DNA from: Olleya sp. Hel_I_94
Lineage (GTDB): Bacteria; Bacteroidota; Bacteroidia; Flavobacteriales; Flavobacteriaceae
DNA: 64,000 nt
Reading direction: 5' to 3'
Assembly (NCBI RefSeq): GCF_007827365.1
Contig: NZ_VISI01000002.1
Coordinates: 2,609,001-2,673,000 of the forward strand
Below are positions 33,535 through 43,477 of the stretch, piece by piece. Within the stretch, counting starts at the first letter, position 1. Each line of letters starts with the position of its first letter. The translations under genes were made by a program, and so were the position numbers. The notes beneath the pieces are model-generated. The model had not been told where the DNA came from. It made no database searches and worked only from the letters and a program-made list of their open reading frames with translations.

Positions 33535-35820
33535 TTATTCCTCTTCTAAAGTTGCAGGAGTTACAGATGCATCATGAGCATTATGGTACTCTTCTAAAAG
33601 ATTCATAGTAGCACTAAGTAAATCTTTAGTTTCTGATAATAAATTAAAATATAAGGTTGTATTTTTTGGACTAGACTCTTCAGTTCTTGTACGCTCTACT
33701 TGTTTAATGATTTTAGAGGAAACAAGTTCCATTATTTCATTCTTTCTTCCTAAAATATCTCCTATTTGTTCAAATGAGCGTGAATTAAAGGCGTTTTGTG
33801 TATTATTGAAAAACAAATCAAAACGTGCATCAATTTCTTTAAGCTCTTTTATTTGACTAAACTTTAATTTTTTATGATTGTTGTTTACGTGTTTATGACT
33901 CATTTTAGTAATGTAGTCTAACGACTGCGTCATGTCTTGTAAATAACCTAAAATATTGATGTAAAAGTTACTTGCGTTTAAGCTAGATTCATCTAAATTT
34001 TTAATAAAATAAAAGATATTATCTCTAAGTGCATCTACTTCTGTAGACAGTTTAATAACTTGTTTTTTATTCTTTTTAAGTAATGCGCTATCCTGTTTAG
34101 CTAAACCATTAATAGCGTTAGTGTAAATTTTGTTTCCTCTTTTTACAACGTTAGCAATGTTTTTGGCGCTTTCGTGAATAACACCTTGTACAGAGCTGCT
34201 TTCTGAATCTGTTAAGCTATCCTCTGGAGCAGTTTTGTTAGACGTCTCTTTGTGTGATAAATAATTTCTAACTAGTAAAATAGCAGTTAATAATAATAAT
34301 ATTGGTGTCATCACTTTAGGATTCCACTTTATTAAAAACACGACTGTACCTGCAGCAAAAAAGGCTCCAATAGCAGTTCCAAACCAACCACCAATTACAT
34401 TTAATACACCAGCGACTCTATATACAGCACTTTCGCGTCCCCAGGCACGATCCGCAAAGGATGTACCCATTGCGACCATAAACGTTACGTAGGTTGTAGA
34501 TAAAGGCAGTTTCATAGATGTTGCAATTGCAATTAATACACCAGCCACCATAAGGTTAACAGATGCTCTAATCATATCAAAAGCTGGTAAATCTTTACTT
34601 TGTGTTTTAGTTAAAGCTTTAGCAGTAGGCTTTTGAAAGCTTTTGTCAATTTTTGCTTGCGTTGATTTTGGTACAATTGCACTAAAGTAATCAGATAAAG
34701 CTGAGGTTCCTTTTACAATACCTCTAGATAACATGTTAGGTTCAAATTTTTCATGCGTATCGCCTTGGCTAGATAAGTTAATTTCAGTTTCGGCTACTGT
34801 TTTAGCTTTTTTAGAAAACCATAACGTTAATACCATTATAGCTCCAGAAACAAACAATAATAAAGGCTCGGCTGGTACTTTTTTCTCTAAAATTGCCATA
34901 GAGAAATCTGCTGGTAATGTTCCTGAAGTAGCAAAGGCTGTTTGCATCGCCTCAAACGAGTGGTAAGCTGCCATAGGGACACCAATAAAATTTACCAAGT
35001 CATTTCCAGAAAAGGCTAATGCTAATCCAAATGTACCAACTGCTATTACTATAATTAGAACACTTTTTTTAGTTATTTTTTGAAAAATATAAGAAAATAA
35101 AGTCCAGAAAATAACGCTTCCTATTAGTATGTATAATTCGTTTCCTTCTACAACACTATTAATGCTATTGTAAAAAGGAGTCCCTTTAAGACCTTTTAAA
35201 AAGATAAAGTAAGTTATTGAAGCTAATGATATACCGCCAAAAATAGCTCCAAAAAATTTAGATTTTTTTTCGTATTGAAAAGTGAAAATTAAACGCGATA
35301 CCCATTGTACTAATGAACCAACAGTAAATGCTATAAAGACAGACATTACAATTCCTGTAATAATTTCGACAGCTTTTTTAGTGTTAATATAGTTGCCTAA
35401 ATCAGCAAATGTTTGCGTGTCTGAAGCACTAATTTTAATTAATGACATTACAACTGCTGCACCAAGTAGGTTAAATACAATGGATACAGTAGTGGATGTT
35501 GGTAAACCTAATGTATTAAAAAAGTCAAGTAGTAAAATATCAGTAATCATTACTGCCATAAATATATACATGATCTCCTCAAAACTAAACATAGCAGGTA
35601 CAAATATACCTTTACGTGCTACTTCCATCATTCCGCTAGAAAATACAGCACCAATAAAGATACCTAAACTAGCAACTATCATGATAGTTCGCATAGAAAT
35701 AGCTTTGGAGCCTATAGCTGAGTTTAGGAAGTTGATGGCGTCATTACTAACACCTACAACAATATCAACGATTGCTAATACTGTTATGGCAATCAACATA
35801 AATAAATAAATATTATCCAT
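33535..35820 (-). CDS. Inorganic phosphate transporter, PiT family, with PhoU-like C-terminus
   Basis: 761 residues. The two PiT repeats are visible: VGVSNDAINFLNSAIGSKAISMRTI at the N-terminus and ASVNLMVAGVLIAIATSMKLPLSTTYVTFMVAMGTSFADRAWGRES in the second half. Both have the GLPTST/KLPLSTT phosphate-site motif. About eleven membrane helices end near residue 520. The final 200 residues are helical and soluble, PhoU-like (GLAKQDSALLKKNKKQVIKL ... LLSATMNLLEEYHNAH), a form frequent in Bacteroidota. It imports phosphate across the inner membrane. The gene lies 77 bp downstream of a phosphate-type porin, with two 11-bp-spaced AATGTT units between them. Confidence 0.93.
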   Translation of the reverse strand: MDNIYLFMLIAITVLAIVDIVVGVSNDAINFLNSAIGSKAISMRTIMIVASLGIFIGAVFSSGMMEVARKGIFVPAMFSFEEIMYIFMAVMITDILLLDFFNTLGLPTSTTVSIVFNLLGAAVVMSLIKISASDTQTFADLGNYINTKKAVEIITGIVMSVFIAFTVGSLVQWVSRLIFTFQYEKKSKFFGAIFGGISLASITYFIFLKGLKGTPFYNSINSVVEGNELYILIGSVIFWTLFSYIFQKITKKSVLIIVIAVGTFGLALAFSGNDLVNFIGVPMAAYHSFEAMQTAFATSGTLPADFSMAILEKKVPAEPLLLFVSGAIMVLTLWFSKKAKTVAETEINLSSQGDTHEKFEPNMLSRGIVKGTSALSDYFSAIVPKSTQAKIDKSFQKPTAKALTKTQSKDLPAFDMIRASVNLMVAGVLIAIATSMKLPLSTTYVTFMVAMGTSFADRAWGRESAVYRVAGVLNVIGGWFGTAIGAFFAAGTVVFLIKWNPKVMTPILLLLTAILLVRNYLSHKETSNKTAPEDSLTDSESSSVQGVIHESAKNIANVVKRGNKIYTNAINGLAKQDSALLKKNKKQVIKLSTEVDALRDNIFYFIKNLDESSLNASNFYINILGYLQDMTQSLDYITKMSHKHVNNNHKKLKFSQIKELKEIDARFDLFFNNTQNAFNSRSFEQIGDILGRKNEIMELVSSKIIKQVERTRTEESSPKNTTLYFNLLSETKDLLSATMNLLEEYHNAHDASVTPATLEEE

Positions 35821-35843
35821 AGTTTTTAATTAAAATAAGTTTG

Positions 35844-35886
35844 CAAATATCTTTACTGTTTTTGAGTGCAATGTTATGACAATGTT
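35844..35886 (-). promoter_or_regulatory. Pho-box-like repeat and promoter upstream of the PiT gene
   Basis: On the plus strand, AATGTTATG occurs at 35870 and again at 35881, an exact 11-bp period. On the minus strand a TTG (at the end of the repeat), 17-bp spacer and GATATTTG (35851-35844) give a near-consensus promoter 24 bp before the start codon. This fits activation by an OmpR/PhoB-type regulator. Confidence 0.5.
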
Positions 35887-35897
35887 ATGTTTTATTG

Positions 35898-37100
35898 TTA
35901 AAAATGAAGGTCAAATCCAAGTCTAAAGGTAATGTTATCTTCGTTACCGCTTACAGTTGTGTAACTTAAATCTGTTTGTACTTTTAGTTTGTGTCCAACA
36001 ATGTATCTAGATCCTCCTAAAGTGTACTGATCTGTCGGTAAGTTTCCGGTTACAGCATCATAAGTTAATGTAGTGTATCTAGCTGCAATTTCATAATTAC
36101 TTTTAAATAAATAGCCTGCTTGTAAATTTAGGGCTTTACCAGTTAAAACAATATCTCCAGTTGGTGTTGTACCATCTGTGTCAATTGCTATAGGTTGATC
36201 GGCCTCTCTATTAGCATATTCTCCCATAAATGAAAATCCTTTGTATTTAAACATAACATCTGCAAAAATAGTAGATATGTTGGTTTCATACAATGTACCA
36301 TCACTTTTAAACATGTAGTCGCCTAAACCGCTTCGTTCGCGTACAGCGTTTTCGTTAAAATTATAAGTAAAACCTAACATTAATTTAGGTTTAGATTCTC
36401 TTTTTAAATCTGCTTGAATATAGGCTCCTTTAGATTGAAACTTACCAAAAGGTAAAAACTCTAAACGACCTGTATATTGTAGACCACCTTCGTTACCTTC
36501 CGAGACATTACGACCTTCGCCTTGAGAAATAGCTAATTTTTGACGCATTAAAAAATTACCTCCTAAGTTTGATGTGCGACGTAATTGTAATCCTAAGTCA
36601 CGATCAATATTAAAACGACTGTTTAATAAAGAACGATCAATTAATTGCAAATTTGCGGATGACACAACACGCTCTACATTACCAGGTAATTTTGTTTGTC
36701 CAGCCCAAAGCTCCCAATTATCAGCAAATTGCCACATAATTACAGCATCTAAAATATATCTAGGTGTATTACGATTAAATTGGTTTGCACCAGAAAGATC
36801 TCTGTTAGATAAACCTAATTCTATTTTGTATTTTAATTTTGGACTGTAGGCAAAACCATCAAACTTTAAACGTGCACGTCGCACAATAAAGTTGTGTTCT
36901 GGACTAGTATATTGCGACCCATCATGATCCCAAGAGGATATAGATCTAACCTGAAAGCGAGGTGCAAATTTTATACTAAAAGAACTGTCCTTTGCTATAA
37001 AATTAATTAGTCCTTTACCAAAGGACGTATCACTAATTTCTTGAGCACGCACAGTTAAGGTTATGCACAATAATAGTGCAACAGATAAAATAAGTTTCAT
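35898..37100 (-). CDS. Outer-membrane porin, phosphate-selective OprO/OprP type
   Basis: 400 residues. A signal peptide (MKLILSVALLLCITLTVRA) precedes a 16-strand beta barrel built from alternating strands such as FAPRFQVRSISSWDHDG, RRARLKFDGFAYSPKLKYKIELGLSN and YTLGGSRYIVGHKLKVQTDLSYT, ending in the aromatic strand FRLGFDLHF. The N-terminal RRARL-K and YKIELG elements match the phosphate-selective porin O/P family (Phosphate-selective_porin). It likely passes phosphate or phosphate-bearing anions into the periplasm; the inner-membrane PiT transporter is the next gene. Upstream are a Pho-box-like repeat and a 15-nt complementary segment that may pair with its leader. Confidence 0.9.
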   Translation of the reverse strand: MKLILSVALLLCITLTVRAQEISDTSFGKGLINFIAKDSSFSIKFAPRFQVRSISSWDHDGSQYTSPEHNFIVRRARLKFDGFAYSPKLKYKIELGLSNRDLSGANQFNRNTPRYILDAVIMWQFADNWELWAGQTKLPGNVERVVSSANLQLIDRSLLNSRFNIDRDLGLQLRRTSNLGGNFLMRQKLAISQGEGRNVSEGNEGGLQYTGRLEFLPFGKFQSKGAYIQADLKRESKPKLMLGFTYNFNENAVRERSGLGDYMFKSDGTLYETNISTIFADVMFKYKGFSFMGEYANREADQPIAIDTDGTTPTGDIVLTGKALNLQAGYLFKSNYEIAARYTTLTYDAVTGNLPTDQYTLGGSRYIVGHKLKVQTDLSYTTVSGNEDNITFRLGFDLHF

Positions 37101-37125
37101 TAAAAGGTATTAGTTTTTGTCGCTG

Positions 37126-37168
37126 CAAAGAAATAACTCTAATGTTAACTTAATGTTTCCTAAGTATT
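37126..37168 (-). promoter_or_regulatory. Pho-box-like repeat and promoter of the porin gene
   Basis: On the plus strand AATGTT lies at 37141 and 37152, with a weaker AGTATT at 37163: three units at 11-bp period. On the minus strand TTTCTTTG at 37133-37126 serves as -7 element, 7 bp from the repeat. The stretch 37138-37158 is identical over 21 bp to 42080-42060 upstream of the TonB receptor (reverse orientation). Confidence 0.55.
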
Positions 37169-37185
37169 AACCTTATAAAATTAAT

Positions 37186-37303
37186 AAAAAAAGACTGCTT
37201 TGGCCAAAAGCAGTCTCATTAGAAATCATAATAATGTAGTCGACAAAAACTAATAGATTATATGAAATGCTAATTGTGTTGTCTTAAGACACCAACAAAT
37301 ATC
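37186..37303 (-). ncRNA. Candidate small RNA complementary to the porin leader
   Basis: A minus-strand segment ending in a strong intrinsic terminator: AGACTGCTTT / AAAGCAGTCT stem (37216-37192) followed by U7. It has a GATATTTG -7-like element at 37303-37296, the same variant as upstream of the PiT gene, but no clear -33. The segment carries TATTAGTTTTTGTCG (minus strand 37255-37241), whose perfect 15-nt complement is in the porin leader at 37122-37108, directly upstream of the porin start codon. No gene explains the terminator. Confidence 0.45.
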
Positions 37304-37408
37304 ACCACACAAAGTGATTTTAATGTAACCCTAATATTATGTAATTATTAAGGATTATTATGTTAATTTAATTTGTTTAACGATTGTTTTTCAGTGCTTT
37401 ATAATTCC

Positions 37409-37465
37409 AATGTTAATTTAATGTTACGTAAATGTTGCATAAATGTTATGAATTGTGTATCTTTG
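37409..37465 (+). promoter_or_regulatory. Four-unit Pho-box-like array and promoter of the MORN gene
   Basis: AATGTT starts at 37409, 37420, 37431 and 37442: four exact units, each 11 bp apart. It is followed after 10 bp by TATCTTTG (37458-37465), an exact TAnnTTTG -7 element, and by the start codon at 37491. There is no TTG at -33, so the array takes the place of the -33 element, as PhoB boxes do. Confidence 0.65.
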
Positions 37466-37490
37466 AAGTATAATGTTAAAACCCATAATT

Positions 37491-37850
37491 ATGAAGAAAT
37501 CAATTTTAGTTTCAATTGCTTTTTTATTTACTGTGGTTTCTTTTGCTCAAGACAAAAGGGATTTAAAACTTAATAAAAACACTAACTTAATAGAAGTTGT
37601 TTATTATCACGACAATGGAGTTGTAAGCCAAACAGGAGCTTATACGACAGATGGTAAGTTACAAGGTGAGTGGTTAAGTTTTGATACAGCAGGCAAGAAA
37701 CAAGTTTCAGCAAGTTATGATAATGGTAAAAAAGTCGGCAAGTGGTTTTATTGGAATGATACCACTCTTAAAGAAGTAGATTATACTAATAACAAAATTG
37801 CTAATGTTAGCGAGTGGGAAGTAAAAAATCCAGTAGCTACTAGTAATTAA
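37491..37850 (+). CDS. Exported MORN-repeat protein (YwqK-like)
   Basis: 119 residues from the ATG at 37491, which begins a clean signal peptide (MKKSILVSIAFLFTVVSFA, cut before QDKR); an upstream in-frame ATG at 37473 would overlap the presumed transcription start. The mature part holds MORN-type repeats: VVYYHDNGVVSQTGAYTTDG, KLQGEWLSFDTAGKKQVSA, YDNGKKVGKWFYWND. Automatic annotation often names such proteins antitoxins of the YwqK family; no toxin partner is visible here, and an exported MORN protein is unlikely to be an antitoxin. The four-unit 11-bp array upstream suggests induction together with the phosphate genes. Confidence 0.85.
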   Translation: MKKSILVSIAFLFTVVSFAQDKRDLKLNKNTNLIEVVYYHDNGVVSQTGAYTTDGKLQGEWLSFDTAGKKQVSASYDNGKKVGKWFYWNDTTLKEVDYTNNKIANVSEWEVKNPVATSN

Positions 37851-37861
37851 GTTATTATATC

Positions 37862-37897
37862 AAAAAAAAAGCCTTGCATTTGCAAGGCTTTTTTTTT
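37862..37897. terminator. Bidirectional intrinsic terminator
   Basis: A perfect 17-bp stem: nine A, GCCTTGCA, loop TT, TGCAAGGC, nine T. It serves the convergent MORN gene and the beta-helix lipoprotein gene. Confidence 0.92.
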
Positions 37898-37912
37898 GAT
37901 ATATATTTTGGT

Positions 37913-39082
37913 TTAATTGATTGTCCAACCAGCTCCCCAAGTTGTGTAATCTGTTCCAGTTGCAGAACCTTCTGCAGTATAAAAGTCAGCATCTGTGAAA
38001 GTTACAGTAGTATCATTTTTAACTTTAGTTAAAACGTCAACAAAAGTTACTCCTGTTACCTGAAGATCGTCACTTACAACTCCGTTTCCTGTGTCAGCAT
38101 CATCTAAATCAAAACCTTCAGCATATCCTGTAATCATTATGTTGCTAAATATACCTTGTGTACCAGCTCTTAATCTAACCGCTTCTGATGAGTTAGCTGA
38201 ACCTTCTCCAATAATAGATACATTATTTAAAGTTGGCTTAGAAAATATTCCTGTAGCATTACTAAAGTCTGTATTGTAACCATCAGCTTCTATTGCTTTA
38301 TCGTCTGATGCTCTATTAGAGATGTATACATTATTTAATGTTCCAGAAAAACCTTCAGTCCAGTCTACAGAGTCATCTTCTGCATTGATTACAGAGATGT
38401 AGCTTGCATTAACTGTTCCTCCAAAAAATTCGATTCCATCATCTTTTCCTGCAAAAGCCTGGATGTAGTTTACAGACGTTCCGTTACCTACACCATAAAA
38501 AGAGAATCCGTTATTTTCAGATTGTCCATCTGCTGCACCACCAGAATACTCAACACGTACATAGCTTAAAGATCCAGAATTGTCATTAGCAGTATTTCCT
38601 CCGTAAGGTAAACTTGCAATCTCTGAAGTTGCAGTGTTTGTTCCTGTAACAGAGTTGATAGGTGCTTTTCCTAATAATATTAATCCTCCCCAATCTCCAG
38701 CAGCAGGACTTGCAGCATCAGATGTAAAAACAATAGGACAATCAGCAGTACCATTAGCTATGATTTGTGCACCCTGAGATATTGCAATATATACATCTGC
38801 TCCAGATGATAATGCCTTAATAGTCATACATGGTGGAATAGTTAAAGTGGTTCCGCTTGCCATGATTAAAGATCCATTTAACTTGTAAGTGTTGTTAGCG
38901 TCTAATGTTAAATCTTCAGTATAAGTACCAGATAGGAAAATAGTTGAAGGGTCCGTTGAACCTCCTCCAGACGTATTATTGGTTACACTATTGTCGTTAA
39001 TTACAATATCAGATGTGTCATCAGTTGAGCAAGAGAATACTGTTGCTGCTAATGCTAAGCCTAAAATTATTTGTTTTTTCAT
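37913..39082 (-). CDS. Beta-helix lipoprotein paired with the TonB receptor
   Basis: 389 residues. A signal peptide ends in the lipobox AATVFSC (Cys at residue 18), followed by a Ser/Thr/Gly linker. The body is a right-handed beta-helix-like repeat: LTLDANNTYKLNGSLIMASGTTLTIPPCMTI, then rungs such as GGTVNASYISVINAEDDSVDW, GTLNNVYISNRASDDKAIEADG and NVSIIGEGSANSSEAVRL. It begins 44 bp after the TonB-dependent receptor and is surely co-transcribed. Such receptor-lipoprotein pairs act in uptake at the cell surface. Given the Pho-like repeats upstream, a role in binding or processing a phosphate-containing substrate is suggested but not shown. Confidence 0.85.
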   Translation of the reverse strand: MKKQIILGLALAATVFSCSTDDTSDIVINDNSVTNNTSGGGSTDPSTIFLSGTYTEDLTLDANNTYKLNGSLIMASGTTLTIPPCMTIKALSSGADVYIAISQGAQIIANGTADCPIVFTSDAASPAAGDWGGLILLGKAPINSVTGTNTATSEIASLPYGGNTANDNSGSLSYVRVEYSGGAADGQSENNGFSFYGVGNGTSVNYIQAFAGKDDGIEFFGGTVNASYISVINAEDDSVDWTEGFSGTLNNVYISNRASDDKAIEADGYNTDFSNATGIFSKPTLNNVSIIGEGSANSSEAVRLRAGTQGIFSNIMITGYAEGFDLDDADTGNGVVSDDLQVTGVTFVDVLTKVKNDTTVTFTDADFYTAEGSATGTDYTTWGAGWTIN

Positions 39083-39126
39083 TGTTTTTAGTTTTTTAGT
39101 TGTACTATGTTTTTGTGTTATGTTTA

Positions 39127-41931
39127 TTAAAATTTATATTTAAGTTGAAGTCCTATATTCATACCTCTTTTATAATCTGTAACACCTTTTCCGTTTGCAG
39201 ATACTACTAATACATCGCCTTGGTTTTGGTCTTCTCTAACGTATTGAATAGTTGGGTCTAAAAGGTTTTTAGCGCTTAAGTTGATTTCAAAATTATCATT
39301 GATTGTGTTTTTCCAGATAAAGTCTAATGTTGGTACGCTTTTTTCTACAATGTTTCCTAAATCACCAGAACCCAATGCGTCGATACGGTCAGAGAAGTAT
39401 GAAAAGACTAAGTTGGCAACAGGCTTGTAGTTTTTAAATGTTGGAGAATAGCTGATGTCTGCATTTAGAATAAATGGTGAAGCACCTTGTAATTCATCTT
39501 CGGTTTTATTGAAAGCTAAATCAAAAGTACCATCTATGTTGTCATATAAATCTTGTTTAGTTTTCATGTAAGTGGCATTAACTCCAAATGATAAATTGGT
39601 GTTTTGATCTGCGTCCACTAATAGGTCTTTTCTTAATTCAACTTCAACACCATAAACAGTTGCTTGATCTCCTGTTCTTACATAACGTTGTGTTCCTGTA
39701 GCGTCACCTACTACCACTAGGTTGATTGGGTTGTCAATTTGTTTTGTAAATGCACCTATAGAAAAGATTTCGCTTTTACTAAAAAACCACTCATATTTTA
39801 AATCAATATTTAAAACTTCAGAGTAACCAAGTGCATCTGGATTACCACCTATACGAGTTGATACGTCTTCGTAAACAAAAGGAGCTATTTCTTTAAACTC
39901 TGGTGTAGATACTGTTTTACTTGCAGATAATCTTAGGTTTTGATCATCCGTTAGGCTGTATTTAATGTTTAAACTTGGTAAAATAAATGTTTCTTCAGAT
40001 ACTTTAGAGTCTACACCATTGTTTCCTAAGTTGATCACGTTATAATCAATACTTTGCTCAAAGTTTTCTAATCTTACGCCTGGTACAAACAACCATTTTT
40101 CTCCTGCTTTAATTTGGGCATCTACATATCCAGCATAAATATTAAGCTTTCCATTGTAAGTGTTTTCAAAAAGTCCAGGTCTGTTAGTATTAGAAAGTGT
40201 TGGGTAAGGTTTTAGTACTTTAATTTCGTATAAACCGTTTGACGATTCAGTAAGATTTAAGTTGTCAAGATTAAAAACTGAATCAAAGTTGTTTACATCT
40301 GTTATTTGATAATTACTATCAACTATATCGTAACCGTATCTAACATTATTAAATTGTCTTGTTTTGTTACGACCATTGTATCCAAAGTTAAACTTAAGAT
40401 TGTCATTAACTTCGTAAGCTAAATTGATGCGACCGTTATATTCGTCATCTTCAATTTTTTGAAAGTAACGTTGGTTATCAAATACTACATTGCTGTAAAA
40501 GGTTGGGTTTGTTGTAGGATCATTATCTAAAGCATAATCATAGTTTTCTACACTAAAACGCTTACGGTCTGGTTGATCAGAAAATACTTTGTTGTATCCA
40601 AATCCCCAATCTAATTCAAAATTACCCGATTTATGATTTCCTATTAATTGATTGACAAACATTTTTGTTTGATCAAATTGTATGTTTTGTTGGTAAAACC
40701 CTTTATCTGTGTTTAGGATGGCATCTCTGCTTCTTCCATTACCATCTGTTCCATAATATCCAACTTCGTCAGAAGAGCTATTAATAAATACAGAATTAAA
40801 ACTTAGGTTATTATCAGAGTTTATTTTGTAATTAATATTAGCCATAGCTGTTGAGGTTGTAGAATACTCATATTCTTCAGCAGCTTCAAATGCTTTTTTC
40901 TCCACTGTAGAAAAATCTACTGACCTACCTTGTCTGTATTCGTAGTTGTTTTCAAATCCACCAGTTACAAAAAAGCTTAATCTAGAACCGTTTTCAAAAT
41001 TAAAAGAGCTACCACCTGATGCACCATAAGCCACATTTATTGGTGTGTCTACAGCTACAGGATCTACACCATGAGATAATATAATTGCAAATGGATTATG
41101 CTCATTTCTACCATAAAAACCAAAGTAACCTGTACCTTCACTACGTACAAAGTTTTTGTCAATAGCATTAGTGTTAAAGCCACTACCTGTAAAAGCAGTT
41201 GCAAAGCTACCACCTTTATGTTCTTTAGAAGTGATATCTACATTTCCAGCAGCAAAGTCTCCGTAAAATTGAGAAGCATAAGCTTTACTTATCGACACGT
41301 TTTGAATAACGTCTGATGAAAATAGATTTAAATCAATGTTTTTCTTGTTAACATCATTAGATGGTAATGATAATCCATTCATAGTTGTGTTAAGGTATCT
41401 GTCTCCAAGACCTCTTACATATACGTTGCTTGATCCTTCTTGCTTAGATACACCAGATATTTTGGCAACAGCACCAGCAGCATCACTAACTCCTTTTCTT
41501 GATAATTCTTCTGCACCAATACTTTGTTTGATTTCGACCGCTTTTTTCTGGTCTAACAGCAATGCAGTTTCACTTTCACGCTTGGTAGTAACCGTTTCTA
41601 AAATTACTTCGTCTAAAGACGCAGCACTTGCTCCCATTGCAACATCAATTGTTGTTGTTTTTCCAGCTTCCACTGTAGCAGCAATAGTTTGTGTTTGGTA
41701 ACCAACAAAACTAAATTCTATATTATACGCACCTGGCTTAAGGTCGGTAATTTGATATTGACCATTATCATCAGATGTTGTACCTATAGTAGTGCCTTTA
41801 ATTAAGATGTTGGCAAATGCTAGCGGTTCGTCGTTAAATTCTTTATCAGTTAAAGTTCCTGATATCGAACCATTTTGAGAATAAGTTGCGATGCTAAATA
41901 AAGCAAAAAGTAAGTATGTTAAATTTTTCAT
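39127..41931 (-). CDS. TonB-dependent receptor with carboxypeptidase-like regulatory domain
   Basis: 934 residues from the ATG at 41931, which starts the signal peptide MKNLTYLLFALFSIATYSQ; an upstream frame extension of 17 residues has no signal features. Residues about 22-105 form the CarboxypepD_reg-like domain (ISGTLTDKEFNDEPLAFANILIKGT). The plug domain follows with SRKGVSDAAGAVAKISGVSKQEGSSNVYVRGLGDRY, then a 22-strand barrel with the final strand MNIGLQLKYKF. It imports a large or scarce substrate across the outer membrane using TonB energy. Its lipoprotein partner is the next gene. It lies beside phosphate porin and transporter genes and has a Pho-box-like upstream region. Confidence 0.93.
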   Translation of the reverse strand: MKNLTYLLFALFSIATYSQNGSISGTLTDKEFNDEPLAFANILIKGTTIGTTSDDNGQYQITDLKPGAYNIEFSFVGYQTQTIAATVEAGKTTTIDVAMGASAASLDEVILETVTTKRESETALLLDQKKAVEIKQSIGAEELSRKGVSDAAGAVAKISGVSKQEGSSNVYVRGLGDRYLNTTMNGLSLPSNDVNKKNIDLNLFSSDVIQNVSISKAYASQFYGDFAAGNVDITSKEHKGGSFATAFTGSGFNTNAIDKNFVRSEGTGYFGFYGRNEHNPFAIILSHGVDPVAVDTPINVAYGASGGSSFNFENGSRLSFFVTGGFENNYEYRQGRSVDFSTVEKKAFEAAEEYEYSTTSTAMANINYKINSDNNLSFNSVFINSSSDEVGYYGTDGNGRSRDAILNTDKGFYQQNIQFDQTKMFVNQLIGNHKSGNFELDWGFGYNKVFSDQPDRKRFSVENYDYALDNDPTTNPTFYSNVVFDNQRYFQKIEDDEYNGRINLAYEVNDNLKFNFGYNGRNKTRQFNNVRYGYDIVDSNYQITDVNNFDSVFNLDNLNLTESSNGLYEIKVLKPYPTLSNTNRPGLFENTYNGKLNIYAGYVDAQIKAGEKWLFVPGVRLENFEQSIDYNVINLGNNGVDSKVSEETFILPSLNIKYSLTDDQNLRLSASKTVSTPEFKEIAPFVYEDVSTRIGGNPDALGYSEVLNIDLKYEWFFSKSEIFSIGAFTKQIDNPINLVVVGDATGTQRYVRTGDQATVYGVEVELRKDLLVDADQNTNLSFGVNATYMKTKQDLYDNIDGTFDLAFNKTEDELQGASPFILNADISYSPTFKNYKPVANLVFSYFSDRIDALGSGDLGNIVEKSVPTLDFIWKNTINDNFEINLSAKNLLDPTIQYVREDQNQGDVLVVSANGKGVTDYKRGMNIGLQLKYKF

Positions 41932-41983
41932 TTTGACTATTAAAATTCTTGGTGCAAAGAAACCTTGATGTTGTAAAGTCAAG

Positions 41984-42080
41984 GTTAACTGCAGATTAAT
42001 AGTTAGTCACCAAAAAGTTAGCTAAAGGTTAACAGGGTCGTTTTGGTATCACTTTTTGTAAACATTAAGTTAACATTAGA
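41984..42080 (-). promoter_or_regulatory. Extended 11-bp-phased repeat region upstream of the TonB receptor
   Basis: Block A (42060-42080, plus strand) holds AACATT at 42061 and 42072 and is identical over 21 bp to the porin site read in reverse. Block B holds GTTAAC at 41984, ATTAAT at 41995, GTCACC at 42006, GTTAGC at 42017 and GTTAAC at 42028, five positions in strict 11-bp phase. The two blocks are not in phase with each other. The dgt gene is divergent and shares this region. Confidence 0.5.
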
Positions 42081-42133
42081 AAGTACTTTGCTTTATTTTT
42101 CAAATAGTTATCTTGCAATACTAAATTTTGTAT

Positions 42134-43477
42134 ATGAATTGGGAGCAATTACTATCGTTAAAGCGCTTTGGCGACACTAATAAAAGATTAAGAAAAGAAC
42201 AAGATGAGACCAGATTAGGTTTTGAAGTAGATTATGACCGTGTCATTTTTTCGTCAGAGTTTAGAAGCCTTCAGGATAAGACGCAAGTAATACCATTGTC
42301 TAAAACAGACTTTGTGCATACACGATTAACCCATAGTTTAGAGGTTAGTGTTGTGGGACGCTCTTTAGGTAGAAAAGTTGGACAAAAAATTTTGGAAAAG
42401 CATCCACATCTTCAAAATATACATGGCTATTTGCCCAACGATTTTGGTGCAATTGTAGCTTCAGCAGCATTAGCACATGATATAGGTAATCCGCCTTTTG
42501 GGCATTCAGGTGAAAAAGCAATTGGCGAATTTTTTATTTCTGGTGAAGGACAGTATTACAAGCATGATTTAACCGATAGTCAATATCAAGATTTATGTGA
42601 TTTTGAAGGTAATGCAAACGGTTTTAAAATTGTTACGCAAAGTCGTGCAGGAAGAGAAGGTGGTTTAAGATTAAGCTATGCTACGCTAGGCGCTTTTACT
42701 AAATACCCCAAAGCCTCATTACCTAAAAAACCAACTCAACATATTGCAGATAAAAAGTATGGTTTTTTTCAAACCGAAAAAGAATCATTTAAAGACGTTG
42801 CAGAAGAGTTAGGTTTAATTCCAAGAGGTGATGCTGCCAACTTAAGCTACTCTCGTCATCCTTTAGCTTTTTTAGTTGAAGCTGCAGACGATATATGTTA
42901 TACAATAATAGACTTTGAAGACGGAATTAATCTAGGATTAATTGAAGAGGAGTATGCGTTAGAATATCTTATTAATTTAGTTCGAAACTCCATTAACACT
43001 AATAAATACCATAAGCTAACTAATACTAAGGATAGGGTAAGTTATTTACGTGCATTAGCTATTAATACATTAATTAACGAAGCAGTAACCATATTTATGG
43101 ATAACGAAGAAGCTATACTTAACGGTCAGTTTAGTATTAGCTTATTGGATAAAAGTAAGTATGAAGCACAAATCAATGATATTATAAAATTAAGCATTAA
43201 TAAAGTGTATCAATCTAAAGATGTAGTAGATAAAGAAATTGCTGGTTACCAAATATTAAATTCATTATTAAATACTTACAGTAAAGCTGTCAATAATACT
43301 TTTTTAGGAAAAGCTACTAATTATGATAAGCTAATAATGAAAGGTTTACCGTCAACATTAGACTTTAATACAGATAGTTTGTATGTAAGATTGCTAAATG
43401 TATGTCATTATGTGTCTTTAATGTCTGATAGTCAAGCAATTATTGAATACAGAAAAATAAAAGGGTTTAGTTTATAA
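42134..43477 (+). CDS. dgt: Deoxyguanosinetriphosphate triphosphohydrolase (dGTPase)
   Basis: 447 residues from the ATG at 42134 (MNWEQLLSLKRFGD). It hydrolyses dGTP or other dNTPs to the deoxynucleoside and triphosphate. The HD-domain ligands are intact: FVHTRLTHSLEVSVVGRSLG near residue 60, AALAHDIGNPPFGHSGEKAI near 118-137, and AADDICYTIIDFEDG with its Asp. The Dgt-specific start RFGDTNKRLRKEQDETRLGFEVDYDRVIFSSEFRSLQDKTQV is present. Single gene, divergent from the TonB receptor. It ends 91 bp before a T9SS protein. Confidence 0.95.
   Translation: MNWEQLLSLKRFGDTNKRLRKEQDETRLGFEVDYDRVIFSSEFRSLQDKTQVIPLSKTDFVHTRLTHSLEVSVVGRSLGRKVGQKILEKHPHLQNIHGYLPNDFGAIVASAALAHDIGNPPFGHSGEKAIGEFFISGEGQYYKHDLTDSQYQDLCDFEGNANGFKIVTQSRAGREGGLRLSYATLGAFTKYPKASLPKKPTQHIADKKYGFFQTEKESFKDVAEELGLIPRGDAANLSYSRHPLAFLVEAADDICYTIIDFEDGINLGLIEEEYALEYLINLVRNSINTNKYHKLTNTKDRVSYLRALAINTLINEAVTIFMDNEEAILNGQFSISLLDKSKYEAQINDIIKLSINKVYQSKDVVDKEIAGYQILNSLLNTYSKAVNNTFLGKATNYDKLIMKGLPSTLDFNTDSLYVRLLNVCHYVSLMSDSQAIIEYRKIKGFSL

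Follow-up and report, generated by a model that had tools for sequence, protein, structure and literature searches.

The phosphate genes of Olleya sp. Hel_I_94 raise the question of what joins their promoters to one another. In the 64,000-nucleotide stretch of DNA analysed here, called the window, the initial annotation had noted AATGTT repeats at 11-bp spacing near five genes and proposed a phosphate-starvation (Pho) regulon. The Pho boxes of PhoB and PhoP in E. coli and Bacillus are direct repeats with an 11-bp period near the promoters of phosphate genes, and the repeats described here resemble them in being 11-bp direct repeats upstream of phosphate genes, near the promoter. They differ in having a unit of about TTAACATT tied to a -7 TTTG at 22 or 33 bp, in the reversal of one array, beside the MORN gene, and in that PhoB is a putative binder. 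A PhoB-controlled Pho regulon is the best reading of the boxes, so that the proposal is likely right in outline. The region between the MORN and porin genes also appears to hold a candidate small RNA (sRNA) gene, missed by the initial annotation, which would be a larger result than the boxes.

Phosphate gene cluster

The genes of the cluster are as follows:
33535..35820, minus strand: PiT-type phosphate transporter gene (PHO4 family; PF01384, E 3.3e-29)
35898..37100, minus strand: porin gene (Porin_O_P; PF07396, E 3.1e-12)
37473..37850, plus strand: small secreted-type protein with a MORN-like repeat (PF07661, below its cut-off)
37913..39082, minus strand: 389-aa lipoprotein-like protein (no Pfam match)
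39127..41931, minus strand: TonB-dependent receptor (PF00593, PF07715, PF13715)
42128..43477, plus strand: dGTP triphosphohydrolase gene, dgt (TIGR01353, 323.9 bits against a cut-off of 152.35)

For the TonB receptor, the ATG at 41931 was preferred as start, the open reading frame listing extending to 41982 with TTG. The closest named relative of the porin is that of Olleya marilimosa CAM030 (93% identity), and the porin as query gave 41 loci from relatives, making 42 with the window. The order of dgt, TonB receptor and lipoprotein, MORN, porin and PiT is widely kept among these loci, with the TonB-lipoprotein pair divergent or otherwise ordered in many relatives. The gap between the MORN and lipoprotein genes (37860-37899) contains a strong hairpin with T runs on both strands, likely a two-way terminator.

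Distribution of the Pho-like boxes

The copies of AATGTT at 35870/35881, 37141/37152 and 37409/37420/37431/37442, and of AACATT at 42061/42072, were all verified at their 11-bp spacing, and the identical stretch reported for the porin and TonB-side sites was confirmed as a shared core of AATGTTAACTTAATGTT. The boxes in the cluster are:
35870..35888, minus strand: PiT box, with two units at 22 and 33 bp upstream of TTTG (35844-35847)
37141..37159, minus strand: porin box, with units at 11 and 22 bp upstream of TTTG (37126-37129)
37409..37447, plus strand: array of four AATGTT units on the MORN side, in reverse orientation to the MORN promoter (-7 element TATCTTTG, 37458-37465)
41981..41999, minus strand: weak box of the TonB receptor, with units at 22 and 33 bp upstream of TTTG (41955-41958), read by eye
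42061..42077, plus strand: strong AACATT-N5-AACATT box pointing toward dgt

With up to one mismatch, eight matches were present in the window against 2.57 expected, and none of 100 shuffles reached eight. Across the 42 loci, 200 boxes fell in three intergenic regions totalling 31,433 bases and 18 in the other 757,466 bases. Whether the motif is equally common elsewhere, which the initial annotation had named as a point against its proposal, received a divided answer. Exact sites are concentrated in the cluster: six of the seven AATGTT-N5-AATGTT sites in the 3.56-Mb genome lie within its 6 kb, as do all five genomic matches to AACATT-N4-TAACATT. The reversed pattern of the former likewise occurs seven times genome-wide, so the motif is not over-represented across the genome as a whole, and the latter with up to one mismatch gave 43 matches versus 52 for its reversed control; the one-mismatch genome scan is mostly background. 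A chance origin of the repeats was rejected on the window shuffles, the concentration in the cluster and the 42-locus counts.

Among the 42 loci, a box toward the porin with up to one mismatch was found in 36 of 36 MORN-porin regions and 22 of 38 porin-PiT regions. The opposite orientation was found in 34 of 36 dgt-TonB regions, 16 of which also have a box toward the TonB gene. At the equivalent of 42061-42077, several relatives carry an inserted small gene, CarboxypepD_reg-like as judged by eye, and the box stays on the TonB side.

Promoter geometry and orientation

The units are head-to-tail repeats with an 11-bp period, placed on a grid before the -7 TTTG. Matches to TTAACATT peak 11, 22 and 33 bp from TTTG in 37 porin promoters and at 33 and 22 bp in 36 PiT promoters, while 12 TonB gene promoters gave a weak peak at 22 bp, a row in which the wrong TTTG was taken for the window. 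The weak TonB box of the window was read by eye and checked on the 22-bp grid, the position weight matrix not having singled it out. In 36 MORN promoters, reversed units were found 45, 34, 12 and 23 bp from TTTG. Orientation and distance to the promoter are thus constant for PiT, porin and the candidate sRNA gene, weak for the TonB gene (12 loci) and reversed for MORN.

The conflict in orientation that the initial annotation had raised against itself is partly solved by these TTTG-based peaks, which place porin and PiT in the same orientation, with the weaker, correctly oriented box of the TonB receptor likewise. The strong repeat at 42061-42077 had been assigned to the TonB receptor; it points toward dgt and was rejected as the receptor's ordinary activating box. 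The MORN array is truly reversed, from which it follows that induction of MORN cannot be assumed; lying near the -7 element, the array could instead repress the gene.

Probable regulator of the boxes

Two proteins with an OmpR-type DNA-binding domain were found in the genome, one PhoB-like and adjoined by a PhoR-like kinase, the other RprY-like; the names PhoB, PhoR-type and RprY are those of the best NCBIfam matches, all below curated cut-offs. The phoBR pair lies elsewhere than the cluster. The genome has no match to PhoU and no clear PstS, the sole PF12849 match being below its cut-off and reading like a LysR regulator. The long C-terminal portion of PiT matches no Pfam family and might do a PhoU-like job, given the genome without PhoU.

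Outside the cluster, 37 one-mismatch sites were present, the top three having box scores of 20.8, 18.4 and 17.6. The first lies before the SusC-like receptor of a SusCD/glucoamylase locus (L108, 3582-3598), which speaks against a purely phosphate role; the second is in the intergenic region beside phoB, and the third precedes a TonB receptor and lipoprotein (L109, 3209-3225). The box at L071 (9692-9710) has phoB on one side and, on the other, a secreted protein that ends in a Por secretion tail, and at L109 an endonuclease-family gene is nearby on the other strand.

The box was also sought upstream of pstS and PhoX in relatives, as the initial annotation had suggested. Nine pstS genes scored above 20 LysR-like genes that the same profile had picked up (one-sided p = 0.0019), the two kinds being distinguished by inspection of their N-termini. 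The outcome for PhoX was mixed, with scores of 16.4, -4.5, -5.4 and 6.8 for four long matches and a p of 0.00013 for a group of six weaker matches that was picked after the scores were known. In this upstream scoring, L189 could not be framed and the start of L167 is doubtful.

The Pho-regulon reading is favoured by the conserved position and phase of the boxes, the PhoB/PhoR-like pair, the box beside phoB, the pstS enrichment and the strong pstS matches near the candidate sRNA gene in five genomes (given below), and is weakened by the one-mismatch control, the SusCD box and the MORN orientation. If the boxes are real but a regulator other than PhoB, for instance the RprY-like protein, binds them, this would fit the site before the SusCD/glucoamylase locus, and 11-bp repeats are common to OmpR-type regulators. 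However, phosphate genes dominate among the boxes, one box lies beside phoB and pstS is enriched, and the RprY-like protein is the sole other OmpR-type domain protein found; we regard a different regulator as improbable and retain PhoB as the presumed binder.

A candidate sRNA gene between MORN and porin

Between the MORN-side array and the porin, conservation extends beyond the boxes:
37322..37351, minus strand: sRNA promoter, three degenerate 11-bp units 22, 33 and 44 bp before TTTG
37186..37290, minus strand: candidate sRNA gene, 5′ end placed from the -7 TTTG at 37296-37299 and 3′ end from the T run
37241..37253, minus strand: sRNA seed, TTAGTTTTTGTCG
37193..37215, minus strand: rho-independent terminator stem-loop of the sRNA, with compensatory changes at 3 pairs in 36 rows
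37110..37122, minus strand: porin mRNA leader site complementary to the seed, CGACAAAAACTAA

The block has both a promoter-like element of its own and a rho-independent terminator. Its kept parts are the -7 element, the stretch TAGTTTTTGTCGACT and the terminator, TAGTTTTTGTCGACT being identical in 36 of 36 aligned rows. The rows were gathered by searching for an exact 13-nt seed and comprise all 36 of the 42 loci with the MORN-porin region; the other six either have no seed (L030, L031, L035 and L046) or are truncated (L033 and L048). In the 36 sRNA promoters, TTAACATT matches peak 33 and 44 bp from TTTG, with 22 bp ranking fourth below an off-grid peak at 27 bp, which counts against the explanation that we favour. 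At 19 further loci outside Olleya, the promoter units gave 15-20 of 24 matches, the shifted controls averaging 6.9-12.3; this set leaves out nine Olleya loci and two loci without TTTG, scores L136 on both strands and includes L137, which is a named locus, and at L111 and L136 a shifted control equalled the promoter-unit score.

Of 149 Flavobacteriaceae genomes, each representing a different genus, at least 62 matched a covariance model of the sRNA, a lower bound because the filters were stricter. An exact 15-nt pattern was present in 30 of 60 genomes of the family and in none of the 39 genomes taken from other families of its order. The sets of loci used here and below overlap: in L110-L139, L137 and five of the nine Olleya loci match a named locus, and within L218-L270 nine loci repeat an L110-L139 block and three match a named locus. 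Within the sRNA block, Rfam gave nothing up to E 1; in the rest of 35600-42300 it gave ten terminator-like matches, all below the gathering score. A peptide encoded in the block was provisionally set aside on account of frame-breaking indels in the alignment, judged by eye. Genomes G195 and G142 have two sRNA copies each, and both copies in G195 precede the same porin-leader site.

Predicted pairing between the sRNA seed and the porin leader

Pairing of the predicted sRNA seed with the porin leader is well supported by comparison across loci. A contiguous run of at least 11 nt, G-U pairs allowed, was found in 35 of 36 loci, while 36 PiT leaders gave runs of at most 10 nt and 31 of 720 shuffled leaders reached 11 nt. 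Of 22 further entries, 21 reach 11 nt downstream versus 5 upstream, L033, L048 and nine Olleya loci being left out of this test and L136 entered on both strands. Among the covariance-model matches, 50 of 53 have a run of at least 11 nt, that of L221 not lying in a porin leader and that of L259 lying inside the gene. By duplex energy, the porin ranked first of 39 ORF starts, taken from 52 listed ORFs (-27.3 versus -21.0).

Covariation was followed in 79 distinct seed-leader combinations, obtained from 117 minus 5 rows that were picked by patterns fixing much of the core; absent from the set are L252 and L255, with seeds outside the pattern, and L118, L221, L241, L250 and L257, which have no target. 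Paired cells numbered 1064 of 1185, against a mean of 1044 and a maximum of 1055 in permutations, and 15 cells were changed on both sides and still paired, whereas 1000 permutations gave 4.7 such cells on average and never more than 11. Of these double changes, eight fall at the outermost counted pair, and the permutation ignores relatedness. The eight inner pairs are kept in 79 of 79 combinations, partly because the row patterns require them. Within the core, L267 has a seed T to A change with a leader A to T change, and in L263, L264 and L270 the seed TTAG has become TAAG or AAAG and the leader CTAA has become CTTA or CTTT. Retention of the leader site in L031, a locus whose genome lacks the seed, counts against the pairing.

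The complementary stretches might also be two inverted DNA sites of a protein, since GTCGAC in the seed is palindromic and the porin copy overlaps the likely transcription start. Many one-sided leader changes, however, keep G-U pairs (for example 9 and 10 G-U at two pairs), double changes preserve complementarity, and a conserved terminator follows the seed, making a protein site highly improbable.

Other possible targets and sRNA loci away from the porin

In Gaetbulibacter (L016, genome G099), an Na+/Pi cotransporter gene (PF02690) has a 17-nt site before its start, and a cotransporter leader in G017 has a 15-nt site. The leaders of clustered cotransporter homologues in G057 and G043 lack the site, which counts against the explanation favoured below, and two other PF02690 genes gave weak duplexes with the sRNA; G026 is not included among these leaders, a neighbouring ORF having been read for L156. 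The Olleya genome itself has no PF02690 match, and its third exact copy of the 13-mer lies inside a small reading frame. Several sites were rejected as targets: those of L140 and L143 lie at the end of an upstream reading frame, that of L146 inside a 73-aa frame and that of L141 between genes with no clear gene downstream, and the one-mismatch seed copies of L165 and L166 look coding.

The sRNA is kept with no porin found alongside in G023, G175, G161 and G176, three of which have PiT next. In G012, G046, G056, G110 and G113, a strong pstS match follows the sRNA on its downstream, porin side, within about 2.4 kb. At L189, L194, L196, G110 and G113, the strong pstS match near the sRNA apparently sits where PiT does here.

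These arrangements bear on whether the block is instead a cis-acting leader, in which read-through from upstream would give one transcript and the seed and porin leader would pair around the terminator. Seed and site do share a strand, with about 105-200 nt between them in most genomes. However, the porin has its own box and -7 element past the terminator, the four genomes without an adjacent porin keep the block, and Na+/Pi cotransporter leaders carry the site, in L016 on the opposite strand at a distance of about 5.5 kb. A cis-acting leader therefore seems a poor bet, and the block is treated below as a candidate sRNA gene.

Proposed mechanism

The explanation that we favour, at somewhat better than even confidence, is a PhoB-controlled phosphate-uptake cluster with a built-in sRNA that lowers porin translation. 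Phosphorylated PhoB would bind 11-bp units of about TTAACATTNNN, arranged head to tail and spaced on a helical grid ahead of the flavobacterial -7 elements of PiT, porin, TonB receptor and sRNA gene, and in phosphate starvation would switch on porin and sRNA together. The predicted RNA of about 105 nt would use UUAGUUUUUGUCG to pair with the very start of the porin mRNA, covering the A-rich ribosome-loading region and lowering porin translation. Shared Pho-like boxes and pairing at the porin mRNA start would together make an incoherent feed-forward brake. It is uncommon for an activator to be linked to a repressor of the same gene, which counts against this explanation.

The repressive sign is read from the position of the pairing. 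The same pairing could have the opposite sign, with the sRNA protecting or activating the 5′ end of the porin mRNA and both rising in phosphate starvation: the site begins about 4 nt after the -7 TTTG, and therefore at or near the mRNA 5′ end, and porin and sRNA have Pho-like boxes in common. However, pairing at such a position, about 10-22 nt ahead of the start codon, usually keeps ribosomes off, and activation is accordingly judged unlikely. The favoured repression may also form part of a graded phosphate circuit in the Flavobacteriaceae. Since the sRNA promoter keeps weak Pho units, the sRNA would be on only in deep starvation, shutting off the inorganic-phosphate porin, and the Na+/Pi cotransporter where present, as uptake passes to the TonB receptor and lipoprotein; this extension is tentative, and we think it rather doubtful.

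Relation to known systems

MicF-type sRNAs repress porins by pairing near the start codon in the leader. The candidate sRNA is like them in its predicted pairing with a porin leader near the start codon, and unlike them in adjoining its target gene, in the Pho-like boxes on both and in its putative sign.

Rfp18 of F. psychrophilum resembles the candidate as a conserved sRNA of flavobacteria for which pairing with mRNAs is predicted, but affects metalloproteases (PMC9723704). In Bacteroides fragilis, of the same phylum, PhoB binds the phosphate (pst) promoter in gel shift, the text consulted giving no box sequence (PMC3547664). The Olleya genome differs in having no PhoU match and no clear PstS.

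In F. johnsoniae, one study names the TonB receptor, FII lipoprotein and OprP in one 'PhoBR operon', with the TonB receptor and FII lipoprotein strongly induced in the phosphate regulon (log2 8.0, 9.9) and the OprP porin beside phoBR not phosphate-induced (log2 -1.3, p 0.245) (PMC8115612). As given there, the non-induced OprP counts against both the Pho-regulon reading and the explanation favoured here. Unlike in F. johnsoniae, phoBR lies outside the cluster in Olleya, and the 389-aa protein is a putative counterpart of FII. Putative Pho boxes in plcP clusters of marine bacteria are mentioned without sequence in the excerpt available (PMC4796936). Our literature search found no phosphate-linked sRNA of Bacteroidetes, and the partial texts examined gave no flavobacterial Pho-box sequence.

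The covarying sRNA-porin pair is a more valuable result than the Pho regulon. If the proposed mechanism is true, it would supply, within the scope of that literature, both a phosphate-linked sRNA of the Bacteroidetes and a flavobacterial Pho-box sequence. The natural double changes would allow a direct test of the RNA pairing, in a family of importance in marine waters, and the circuit would suggest how a bacterium without PhoU tunes its phosphate uptake.
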